From Prototheca cutis (lineage: Eukaryota > Chlorophyta > Trebouxiophyceae > Chlorellales > Chlorellaceae), in the NCBI GenBank assembly GCA_002897115.2, contig BCIH01000018.1, positions 1 to 64,000 on the forward strand: 64,000 nucleotides of DNA, in the 5' to 3' direction. Position 1 is the first letter of the stretch; every line of letters begins with the position of its first letter. Shown here piece after piece: positions 42,733-48,215 of the stretch. The notes beneath the pieces were generated by a model. The model was not told the DNA's origin, did not search any database, and saw only the letters and a program-made list of their open reading frames with translations. The position numbers and the translations under genes were made by a program.

Positions 42733-43818
42733 ATGGCCCAGACCACGTGGTGGACGAGCCGGGTGCTCCTTGACGTGCAGGATGCCAAGTACTGGGGGGA
42801 AACACAGTGCGCGGCGGTGGAGGCCAACGTCCGCAAACACTTTGGCAACAATGTGCGGGGCACCATGAACCTGATCCTCAACGTCAAGGACNGCCGGAAG
42901 GAGCTGGATCACACAGACGCACAGCAGCCGGCCGCACGACGCAGAGTCGGGAAGCGCCGAGGCCTCGAGGGCCTGCGCTACGTCGATGACCTCAGCCCCG
43001 AGGAGCTAGAGCAGCTCGGCAAGTGTGTGTTCATCGACCCCGGCCGCGGGGACTTGATGTACTGCATGCACGAGGACTCGNGCCACAAGANGGGATGCCG
43101 CCTGACCATGCGGATCAGCAGCAGGGAGTGGGCGTTCCTCACACGGTCGCGCAAGTTCCGGAGGCTGTGCGAGAGGCTCATGACCAAGGGTGTGCGCAAG
43201 GCCCTGCAGCGCCTGGCCACCGAGGCACCCAACGGGGCCAGGGCCTGCACTGTGGCAGACTTCTTGGCGTACCTGTGCGTGTTCGGCCAAGTCGAGGCGG
43301 CGCTCAGCAAGCACTATGCCAAGCCCATCTTCCGGAAGCTCCGTCTTTGGGCATACACTTACCGGCAAAAGGCCTACGCGGCGGTCATCGCGCGCCTGCG
43401 CAAGTTCGCGAACGGCGCGACGCTGGTCGTCGGCGACTGCTCGCCGGGCTCGGCACGCTTCCACGAGCCGATGCCACACGTGGGGCTGCTGCGGGCNCTG
43501 GTCAAGGCGGGGTTCAACGTCGTGCTCATCGACGAGTTCCGCACCTCCAAGCGCTGCCCGGCCTGCNAACACGAGGAGTGCACGGTGGAGACGTTCCTCC
43601 GCGTGCCCAACCCANGNCCCTACCGCAGGGAGCAGTCGCCCGAGGTGGTGTGCCACGGGCTGCTGCGCTGCACCAACGAGAAGTGCCGNCCCCCNAACGG
43701 CGAGCATCGTCTCTGGAACAGAGACTTGATGGCGTGTCTGAACATGAGGCACATTGTGCAGAGCCTGCGGAAGACCGGCAAGCGACCGGACCGCTTCCAG
43801 CGCCCAGCGCCGCAGTAA
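42733..43818 (+). CDS. Fanzor (eukaryotic TnpB-like RNA-guided nuclease), RuvC domain
   Basis: 361 residues from ATG 42733. A RuvC-like nuclease: catalytic Asp102 in FIDPGRGDLMY (RuvC-I), Glu268 in VLIDEFRTSKRC (RuvC-II) and Asp331 in LWNRDLMACLNM (RuvC-III). A zinc-binding insert lies between II and III (CPAC at 275-278; CTNEKC at 313-318). LVVGDCSPGSARF precedes RuvC-II as in other Fanzors. The family cuts DNA guided by an RNA made from the element's right end. The protein is shorter than typical Fanzors, and the N-terminal wedge/REC region may be in 42252-42732. Several single-N codons prevent certainty that it is intact. Confidence 0.82.
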   Translation: MAQTTWWTSRVLLDVQDAKYWGETQCAAVEANVRKHFGNNVRGTMNLILNVKDXRKELDHTDAQQPAARRRVGKRRGLEGLRYVDDLSPEELEQLGKCVFIDPGRGDLMYCMHEDSXHKXGCRLTMRISSREWAFLTRSRKFRRLCERLMTKGVRKALQRLATEAPNGARACTVADFLAYLCVFGQVEAALSKHYAKPIFRKLRLWAYTYRQKAYAAVIARLRKFANGATLVVGDCSPGSARFHEPMPHVGLLRXLVKAGFNVVLIDEFRTSKRCPACXHEECTVETFLRVPNPXPYRREQSPEVVCHGLLRCTNEKCXPXNGEHRLWNRDLMACLNMRHIVQSLRKTGKRPDRFQRPAPQ

Positions 43819-44129
43819 AATCCATCCTGGGAGGTTATAGCCTTCCAACGGGGGTGGGAACTCCCGGGGCTCCTTCCCTTCCCCGGAAAGGGAAAGTAGC
43901 CCCGGGGGTCGAAACCCTGGGGGCTCCCTTCCCGGGCCAAGGAGCCCAGAGCTCGTTGCCCCGGGAAGGGAACACAGTCCCGGAGGTGGTCCATCATGGG
44001 GATGGTCCACCTTCCTATTGCCCTGCAGAGTGTGAAAATTTTCGGCCATCAGTGATGCCCAGNNACCCCCGGGGTGATGTGACGCTGTTGCTGGCTGAGC
44101 TGGTTGCATTATTTTTGCCCTGCGCGGTA
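43819..44129 (+). ncRNA. Candidate guide-RNA (omega-RNA) region of the Fanzor element
   Basis: The 310 bases between the Fanzor stop and the right end are GC-rich and able to form hairpins. A perfect 11-bp inverted repeat pairs 43926-43936 (CCCTTCCCGGG) with 43960-43970. A smaller hairpin is CCCTT/AAGGG near 43877-43895. In TnpB and Fanzor systems the guide RNA comes from this position. The region recurs in the deleted copy C. Transcription is inferred, not seen. Confidence 0.45.
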
Positions 44130-44257
44130 TTGTCGCTCAGCGCACATCCAGCCTCTCGCACTTGCCAGTCAGGAAATTCTATCGAAAACACACGCAATAC
44201 TCGCAAACGAACAGGCCAGGGAAGTGTGCCCTGCAAAAGGCAAAAAGGTTTTTTGGA

Positions 44258-44341
44258 TACGAAGCGAACGCTCTACCACTAAGCTAAACAGGCGGAGTCG
44301 GTTGTTGCCTGATGTGTGGATCGAACACACGACCTTTCGCT
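44258..44341 (-). tRNA. Circularly permuted tRNA-Thr (CGU)
   Basis: On the minus strand the 3' half (44341-44306) comes first and the 5' half (44293-44258) follows after 12 bases. The 3' half has anticodon-stem GCGAA, variable AGGTC, T-arm GTGTG-TTCGATC-CACAC, acceptor ATCAGGC and A73. The 5' half has acceptor GCCTGTT, TA, a D-arm GCTT...GAGC and stem TTCGC with loop TTCGTA. Joined in tRNA order they give a 72-base tRNA: acceptor 6 of 7 pairs, anticodon stem 5 of 5, T-stem 5 of 5, loop TTCGTAA with anticodon CGU. The second half is followed by a T5 run (RNA polymerase III stop). Confidence 0.8.
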
Positions 44342-45194: not shown

Positions 45195-45597
45195 GACGGA
45201 TGCAGCCGCGTTCAGGTGGGCACACAGTCCTGTAGATTCTCCACGGGAGCCGTAGGAGGGTGCAGGACAAGCCCTGCGAGTTCAAAAAGATGTGCTGGAG
45301 ATGCGAGGAAAGCCTGCCCAGCAGATATGGCCGGCCCCGGGAAGCACCACTGCTGATGCTGGTTACCGGGACATCCTGTCGGGATGCCTACGGTCGGTTA
45401 CCTGTTCTTCTCTTCCGCAGGGGTCGCATCACTTCATTTCATTGCCCTGTGACAAAACGAACGTCTTGGCTGGGCACAGCGGAAGCATGAAACTTCTCCT
45501 CTGTAGGATTGCATTGAACGGAGGGGGGAGCCAGCTACGCATCATCAAACAAGCAGCTCCCCAAGAGGGCCACCCGGCAAAAGAGTAAAATGATTCG
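45195..45597. other. Spacer inside the mobile/tRNA block
   Basis: About 400 bases between copy C and the permuted tRNA-Asn. No gene recognised. Confidence 0.5.
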
Positions 45598-45689
45598 TAA
45601 CAGCCACACGCTCTACCGACTGAGCTATAGCGGAAGGTTTCTCGCGGATCGCACTCCGCCAGACAGGCTCGAACTGCCGACCTTGTGGT
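45598..45689 (-). tRNA. Circularly permuted tRNA-Asn (GUU)
   Basis: The 3' half (45689-45654) precedes the 5' half (45634-45598) on the minus strand, with 19 bases between. The 3' half has stem CCACA, AGGTC, T-arm GGCAG-TTCGAGC-CTGTC, acceptor TGGCGGA and G73. The 5' half has acceptor TCCGCTA, TA, D-arm GCTCAGTCGGTAGAGC, stem TGTGG and loop CTGTTA. Rejoined, the acceptor pairs 7 of 7, anticodon stem 5 of 5 and T-stem 5 of 5; the loop is CTGTTAA. Flanking bases form a bulge-helix-bulge: helix CTGT:ACAG, a TAC bulge and outer helix GAAT:ATTT. T4 runs follow. Confidence 0.86.
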
Positions 45690-47256: not shown

Positions 47257-47452
47257 TGTGCTCCATGGCGTGATCTTCTGGTGATGAGAAGGTAATCCAG
47301 GTGCAGGCAAAAAAAGGTAATCCATGCATAAGGCCGGAAAAGGGGCCTGGGGCTCGGTAGGACGAGGAATTTTGGAGGTATGGGTTGCGCAGGCGCAACA
47401 TATAGGGTGCGGAAATGGGCTCGTGAACATGTTCGGATCAAGCTCCTGGACA

Positions 47453-47547
47453 AGCCTGAGGTCGCCAGATCGAGACTGGCAGGGGGCATTCGCTACCCGA
47501 GGGGTTCGCGCCTCCTTAGCTCAGTTGGAAGTAGCGTAGGTTTCATA
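47453..47547 (+). tRNA. Circularly permuted tRNA-Met (CAU)
   Basis: The 3' half (47453-47488) precedes the 5' half (47510-47547), with 21 bases between. The 3' half has stem GCCTG, AGGTC, T-arm GCCAG-ATCGAGA-CTGGC, acceptor AGGGGGC and A73. The 5' half has acceptor GCCTCCT, TA, D-arm GCTCAG...GTAGC, stem TAGGT and loop TTCATA. Rejoined, the acceptor pairs 7 of 7 (one G-U), T-stem 5 of 5 and anticodon stem 5 of 5 (two G-U); the loop is TTCATAA. The splice region shows 3-base bulges CAA (47451-47453) and TAG (47546-47548) around helix TGGA:TTCA; cutting after base 2 of each gives exactly these halves. T6 at about 47571 follows. Confidence 0.85.
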
Positions 47548-48215
47548 GATAAAATCTCCAAGCTTATCCAAGCTTTTTTGCCTTTTGAAGGTCCATCTTT
47601 TTCGCTCGAGGTCGTGTGTTCCCCTGCCGAGAGTTGGCACGCGGGCGGTAGTCGACGCTCGCCTTTTCTTATGTTTTCTGTCCTAGGCCTCTGCAGTGGC
47701 AAGCATGCAACACAACTCACTGAGAGAATGCACGCTGGGGTTTGTCTCCGCGGGATCAATTACATGGCATGTGGATCAAGGACAACAAAGTGCTTGCACT
47801 GGTACTGGCTCCACATGCAGCGTGCTCACTTTCTCCAGGCAGGGAACGGTCCACTGACGGCTGGCGGAAAGGGGTTCGTTGAGGCTGGCCAGGGCAGTGG
47901 GACAGATATTGCGGGCGCTCAGAGGGCGCCCGCCAAAAACAAGCATTGCTTTTTTGGGTGGCAGAAATGGAAAGTGTGGCGTCGCCATGGTGACGGGCAT
48001 TCTAGGAAGAGAAGAACGTGGGTGGCAGGGTTCTTTCTGTGCATTCAACACATTGATGTGGGGTTTCAAGGACGGGTTGCATCAGAGGGGACACCAGGCG
48101 TCTCTCGGCTTCGCAGGGCCTCGCTCTTCTGAGTCTGGCCACGGTGGTGAGTCTGGCCACGGTGGTGAGTCCAGCCAGGGTGGCCCCCCGACAAACGACC
48201 ACTGCACCGCCAGTT
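47548..48215. other. Intergenic, right edge of the mobile/tRNA block
   Basis: About 670 bases. It starts with the T6 stop of the tRNA-Met gene. Two direct copies of GAGTCTGGCCACGGTGGT lie near 48130-48170. No gene recognised. Confidence 0.5.

Follow-up and report, generated by a model that had tools for sequence, protein, structure and literature searches.

The tRNA-Met locus

The window (i.e. the whole 64-kb stretch of DNA that was analysed) has a GC content of 60.4% (AT 0.396). On its forward strand the two halves of a tRNA lie in reversed order between 47453 and 47547, with tRNA positions 38-73 encoded first, followed by a spacer and then by positions 1-37. The elements of the locus are as follows.

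47453-47488, forward strand: 3′ half (positions 38-73, discriminator base included) of the putative permuted elongator tRNA-Met(CAU), encoded first (ARAGORN, covariance model, scanner)
47489-47509, forward strand: spacer of 21 nt, which would link the acceptor ends in the precursor; CCA is not encoded after the discriminator
47510-47547, forward strand: 5′ half (positions 1-37) of the same putative tRNA, encoded second (ARAGORN, covariance model, scanner)
47447-47450, forward strand: TGGA in the leader, one strand of the central helix, with its partner TTCA at 47542-47545 (sequence, strict geometry)
47542-47545, forward strand: TTCA (positions 32-35), partner strand of the central helix (strict geometry)
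47451-47453, forward strand: bulge CAA (sequence), with a cut predicted after 47452 by the BHB rule
47546-47548, forward strand: bulge TAG (sequence), with a cut predicted after 47547 by the BHB rule
47574-47579, forward strand: run of six T, a likely Pol III terminator, 26 nt past the 5′ half

When the two halves are rejoined ARAGORN reads a clean tRNA-Met(cat). The acceptor stem is paired at 7/7 positions (one G-U), the anticodon stem at 5/5 (two G-U) and the T-stem at 5/5, and the anticodon loop becomes TTCATAA. This is the full cloverleaf proposed in the initial annotation, which also had the coordinates, the reversed order and the 21-base gap exactly right; its reading of the locus as a circularly permuted tRNA-Met is supported by the sequence. 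The break lies one base 3′ to the anticodon, the 5′ half ending at A37 and the 3′ half starting at A38, so that the gene is of type II with a 37/38 junction.

The join satisfies a strict 4-bp geometry, comprising the helix TGGA/TTCA (with one G-U pair) flanked by the two 3-base bulges CAA and TAG, just as had been described. The motif had also been called near-ideal, which goes somewhat too far: no outer helix is seen beyond the TAG bulge, and the join is therefore of the relaxed hBH form and not the full hBHBh′ form. When folded freely to its minimum energy, the precursor is at the level of shuffled sequences (z -0.02) and does not form the full cloverleaf.

Initiator tRNAs have a run of G-C pairs at the base of the anticodon stem. 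The stem found here is TAGGT/GCCTG, and a separate initiator gene of normal order (L007) has CGGGG/CCCCG. Judged by the lack of a G-C run and the presence of a distinct initiator gene, the permuted gene is an elongator and not an initiator. We note that its T-loop has A54, which is more usual in initiator tRNAs and thus atypical for an elongator.

A search with Rfam at gathering thresholds gave no match within the window. On linear DNA ARAGORN calls a tRNA-Ser(CGA) at 47438-47525, and the locus might be taken to encode that tRNA instead. The acceptor stem of this call is mismatched at two positions, its T-loop lacks TTCRA and it takes in segments of both tRNA-Met halves. A more convincing Ser(CGA) gene, also in permuted form, is present at C6:1283551. 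We find this reading scarcely credible, and reject the call as a false one built from the two Met halves.

Two further permuted genes in the window

A covariance model (R1) was constructed from eight normal-order tRNAs of the same genome recast in permuted order, together with the Met gene of the window (nine rows in all); Leu(CAG) was excluded for the sake of a gap-poor alignment. In the window it scored two further loci, as well as Met.

45598-45689, reverse strand: permuted tRNA-Asn(GUU), with the 3′ half at 45654-45689, a 19-nt spacer at 45635-45653, the 5′ half at 45598-45634 and TTTT at 45587-45590 (covariance model, scanner)
44258-44341, reverse strand: permuted tRNA-Thr(CGU), with the 3′ half at 44306-44341, a 12-nt spacer at 44294-44305, the 5′ half at 44258-44293 and TTTTT at 44242-44246 (covariance model, scanner)

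Both lie within 3.3 kb of the Met gene, and the Thr gene has one acceptor mismatch. The scores were 76.6 bits for Thr, 65.5 for Asn and 64.3 for Met (the last being a training row of the model, with Thr and Asn outside the training set), and the next match scored 9.9 bits. A rule-based scanner applied to both strands of the window returned three matches, all permuted and identical to those of R1. With 24 Mb of random DNA (Markov-1, composition of the window) the same scanner gave no match, permuted or normal.

These data bear on whether the locus might resemble two tRNA halves by chance, either accidentally or through the apposition of unrelated neighbouring genes. R1 can indeed score unrelated neighbours, returning a false permuted match of 33.6 bits for adjacent normal-order Pro and Asp genes. 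Against this, the Met gene scores 64.3 bits as a training member, both of its halves fit a single isoacceptor, and the random DNA was silent. The probability of a chance likeness is accordingly negligible.

A fourth permuted gene, Arg(UCG), lies on the same contig beyond the window (C18:100932, reverse strand, L059), with a spacer of 26 nt.

A census of tRNA genes in the genome

The genome that holds the window comprises 19.89 Mb in 23 contigs. Searches of the genome at junction 37/38 gave at least 42 permuted genes for 29 tRNA species, compared with 18 normal-order genes for 11 species. The 42 comprise the Met gene and 41 that were located through D-arm and T-arm motifs and then identified by the scanner. 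The motifs are independent of the order of the halves, and the 37/38 junction was built into the search for every permuted gene except Met. Seventeen of the normal-order genes came from an Rfam tRNA search in which 63 of 246 candidates were scored, and were typed by ARAGORN. The eighteenth, Leu(TAG) in L047, is assigned by the scanner; ARAGORN reads it as Phe(aaa). The genes are listed here by anticodon, with the copy number where this exceeds one.

Normal order (18): Lys CTT 2, Arg ACG 2, Phe GAA, Arg CCT, initiator Met, Leu CAG 3, Asp GTC 3, Pro AGG 2, Pro CGG, Leu CAA, Leu TAG
Permuted, Ala to Gln: Ala AGC 3, CGC 2, TGC; Arg CCG, TCG, TCT; Asn GTT 2; Cys GCA; Gln CTG 2, TTG
Permuted, Glu to Leu: Glu CTC 4; Gly CCC, GCC 4, TCC; His GTG; Ile AAT 2, TAT; Leu AAG, TAA
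Permuted, Met to Val: Met CAT (putative elongator); Pro TGG; Ser CGA, GCT, TGA; Thr AGT 2, CGT, TGT; Trp CCA; Val TAC

In this incomplete survey each species was found in one form only, initiator and elongator Met being taken as separate; the anticodon CAU occurs in both sets, with the initiator in normal order and the elongator permuted. Twelve amino acids (Ala, Asn, Cys, Gln, Glu, Gly, His, Ile, Ser, Thr, Trp and Val) are represented by permuted genes alone among those found. For Tyr(GTA), Lys(TTT), Ser(AGA), Val(AAC and CAC) and Glu(TTC) the incomplete survey gave neither a permuted nor a normal-order gene. The initial annotation had named a normal-order elongator tRNA-Met elsewhere as the observation that would count against it. 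None was found among the candidates scored: of the 17 normal-order genes matched by Rfam, the initiator L007 is the only one with CAU. Since that search scored 63 of the 246 candidates and was not aimed at elongator Met, we regard the absence of such a gene as likely.

The T-arm word GGTTCGAWTCC counts permuted and normal-order genes without bias of order. It occurs at 26 places, of which 11 are permuted genes, nine are normal-order genes and six are neither; the reversed-pattern control occurs at three. A further 133 unassigned T-arm places, among the matches listed, gave 12 permuted and no normal-order genes. Genes that were already assigned are excluded from the 133, namely three of normal order and three permuted in the list for a wider T-arm word and, in a list of 76 places, the GGTTCGAWTCC places, five further permuted genes and the normal-order Leu CAA. 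There are 108 places for this wider word and 112 for its control, so that most of the former must be due to chance. One hundred of the 108 are accounted for, 93 having been fetched and six already assigned, with one (C2:1778299) falling within the scanned loci L037/L070. From the 76-place list 40 stretches were fetched, the rest being assigned, already scanned or the opposite strand of a palindromic site. Five places were fetched from a list of 22, the other 17 being the known Ser CGA gene and 16 at control level, with three mismatches or, from C1:590915 on, a similar number. Three were fetched from a list of four, the fourth being the known Gly TCC gene. A final search returned ten places, comprising four known permuted genes and six (L216-L221) that gave nothing.

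Four of the counted genes score below 33.6 bits in R1, namely Leu AAG (32.3), Ser TGA (21.6), Gln CTG on C12 (24.0) and Leu TAA (24.3, a partial match). These were accepted on the output of the scanner, with both halves coming from one isoacceptor. The spacers of the permuted genes range from 9 to 80 nt. The longest is that of Ser(UGA) (C2:1778437, reverse strand, L037), which at 80 nt exceeds the maximum of 74 nt in the table of a 2014 review (PMC3978253).

Two tRNA-like sequences stand apart. A permuted-like locus at C2:1547192 (forward strand, L074; 32.6 bits) has an intact 5′ half ending in CTGGCA and a 3′ half that is shorter by about six bases, for which reason it was left out of the 42. 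From its sequence it is perhaps a decaying copy. L049 (C12:216306, forward strand), one of the six unassigned GGTTCGAWTCC places, is an odd tRNA-like sequence of normal order for which ARAGORN prints a two-base anticodon and makes no assignment.

Two proline genes are closely related. Pro(UGG) (C2:935345, reverse strand, L036) is permuted, and Pro(CGG) (C1:222836, reverse strand, L016) is of normal order with a 48-nt intron at 37/38, the same site as the Pro(UGG) junction. The mature bodies differ by one anticodon base. The two constitute a natural pair that bears on the origin of permutation.

ARAGORN with introns allowed, a standard finder, reported no permuted gene in the fetched loci that contain them, which is of practical importance. 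A gapped permuted tRNA-Met pattern gave no match to viral contigs.

Signs of function in the permuted genes

All 42 permuted genes have a TTTT sequence starting within 26 nt downstream of the 5′ half, compared with 5.8% of positions in the window, and 33 of the 42 have TTTTT, compared with 1.8%. Over the acceptor and anticodon stems of the 42 genes there are three mismatches in 504 pairs. CCA is encoded after the discriminator in none of them.

Copies sharing an anticodon provide 20 pairs that can be compared without gaps. The halves are identical at 1440 of 1447 positions (99.5%), three of the seven differences being a single unread N, while the spacers agree at 103 of 263 (about 39%). In the leader the identity is 148/200 over bases 1-10 and 391/1000 over bases 11-60; in the trailer it is 132/200 over bases 1-10 and 255/800 over bases 11-50. 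Thus the halves are kept, the spacers mostly drift and the bases flanking the junction are partly kept, which points to selection on the tRNA together with partial constraint beside the junction. Some copies have spacers that have not drifted (13/13 identical for Ala on C2 and C7, and seven to eight of nine in three Glu pairs), so that part of the identity may reflect recent copying.

Pairing of each leader with its own anticodon loop and trailer was compared with that of swapped leaders, using one gene per anticodon (n = 29). With loose geometry the value was 8.93, compared with 6.53 (sd 0.64) for swapped leaders; with strict geometry it was 2.17, compared with 0.55 (sd 0.31). In neither case did any of 2000 swaps reach the observed value. 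A strict join of at least 4 bp is present in six of the 29. By the rule used, no leader helix is seen for Gln CTG on C10 or for Val TAC, two genes out of the 42. The folding energy of the whole precursor showed no preference for own leaders, which fell below the swapped median in 16 of 29 genes.

These observations may be set against the possibility that the loci are pseudogenes, i.e. unused relics of tandem ordinary tRNA genes that have lost their outer halves. One of the proposals for how permuted genes arose does involve such a tandem stage (PMC3978253, section 10), and one damaged permuted-like locus (L074, 32.6 bits with a short 3′ half) does exist. Against this stand the stems, with only three mismatches in 504 pairs over 42 genes, the halves, which are 99.5% identical between copies with spacers at about 39%, and the T-run behind all 42. 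The searches, though incomplete, also found an ordinary gene for none of the 29 species. We consider it very unlikely that the Met locus is a relic.

The transcripts might alternatively be circularized and act mainly as circular or regulatory RNAs, the tRNAs for translation coming from other genes. Such circular intermediates have been described from other algae (PMC3978253, section 6). However, the halves are intact and decoding-competent for 29 species, the searches gave 12 amino acids no gene of another kind, and the permuted genes of C. merolae yield aminoacylated tRNAs (PMC3978253, section 5). A chiefly regulatory role is highly improbable.

We therefore return to the tRNA gene itself. 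The locus is very probably a working nuclear gene for elongator tRNA-Met(CAU) in circularly permuted form, and this genome has at least 42 permuted tRNA genes including it.

Upstream sequences and box order

In all 42 permuted genes box B (in the T-arm) lies upstream of box A (in the D-arm). As read from the sequences, they do not have the order of a TFIIIC-dependent type 2 promoter, in which box A precedes box B, and the reversed order has been called unsuitable for TFIIIC binding (PMC3978253). The AT content upstream of the permuted genes rises to about 0.58 at -50 to -41, compared with 0.396 for the window, and this mild rise spans about -50 to -31 (in 37 and 24 permuted leaders). For the normal-order genes the value at -50 to -41 is 0.456, with no peak (18 leaders). 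A TATA box common to the permuted genes was looked for upstream, and no clear one was found.

A proposed pathway

A path from these genes to mature tRNA may be drawn by analogy with other algae, where it passes through a circular intermediate (reviewed by Soma in 2014, PMC3978253). Pol III would make a single RNA comprising leader, 3′ half, spacer, 5′ half and trailer, probably stopping at the T-run. In the folded RNA the leader would pair with the anticodon loop or the trailer, a pairing that is shown as a statistical excess across the genes. The tRNA-splicing endonuclease would then cut on both sides at 37/38, freeing leader and trailer, and a ligase would join 37 to 38 to give a circular RNA; both steps are taken from the other algae. 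RNase P and tRNase Z would presumably excise the spacer at the acceptor end, after which CCA could be added.

Permuted genes appear to be the route to most of the tRNA species of this genome. With 42 of the 60 genes and 29 of the 40 species found, and with 12 amino acids represented in no other way among these genes, the permuted form is probably the default architecture of nuclear tRNA genes in the lineage. If so, most translation would depend on circular precursors made by a splicing endonuclease and a ligase, and the Pol III system would have to accept box B before box A. Since an ordinary gene was found for none of the 29 species, these two enzymes would be essential for nearly all translation. 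Recognition by Pol III of genes with reversed boxes A and B becomes directly testable, as does any role that the circular precursors may have of their own.

Comparison with known systems

Permuted tRNA genes are already a known kind, to which each gene described here adds. The initial annotation knew of none from this lineage, but a paper of October 2025 describes permuted tRNA genes from a related genus, Auxenochlorella (PMC12636532, Plant Cell 2025; preprint PMC12633428). The best-scoring protein match to the malate dehydrogenase encoded in the window also comes from Auxenochlorella (76% identity). In Auxenochlorella UTEX 250-A the tRNAscan-SE set was incomplete and permuted genes were then detected, with 5′ and 3′ halves reversed as here. 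The main text of that paper gives no number, list or junction type, compared with at least 42 genes at 37/38 here. The haploid genome is of 22.0 Mb with 63.9% GC, compared with 19.89 Mb here and 60.4% in our window (PMC12636532).

There is also a resemblance to the type II genes of the prasinophytes Ostreococcus and Micromonas, which likewise have junction 37/38, a short spacer and the relaxed hBH join, the latter being the form given for green-algal junctions (PMC3978253, section 8). Those genomes have three to six permuted genes each, chiefly for Ser, Leu, Cys and initiator Met (PMC3978253), whereas here there are 42 genes for 29 species, with spacers of 9 to 80 nt. A genome tabulated with 11 of 43 genes permuted shares the downstream T-stretch, the reversed A and B boxes and the unencoded CCA. 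Its junctions, however, are at four positions and there is a TATA-like element upstream, while here 37/38 was sought and a weak rise in AT is seen (PMC3978253). The archaeon Thermofilum pendens also has reversed halves with a join of the splicing-endonuclease type, but the junction is at 59/60 and CCA is encoded, unlike the present genes (PMC3978253). Two chlorarachniophyte nucleomorphs have two permuted tRNA genes each (PMC4494063).

What would surprise a specialist is the scale, with the permuted form making up most of the tRNA genes found. The whole table of the 2014 review holds 34 permuted tRNA genes, with at most 11 in any genome (PMC3978253), compared with 42 in this one genome. Neither permuted tRNA genes in Prototheca nor any count near 42 was found among the matches listed in a mostly open-access literature.

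Other sequences in the window

ARAGORN also calls a tRNA-Arg(tcg) at 43866-43946 on the reverse strand. This lacks a TTCRA T-loop and is GC-rich, and we judge it to be false. An open reading frame with scattered N lies at 42733-43818 on the forward strand, and gives a weak match, below the cut-off, to a Cas12f1-like TNB domain (E 0.00063). From this similarity it perhaps encodes a transposon protein of the TnpB/Fanzor type.
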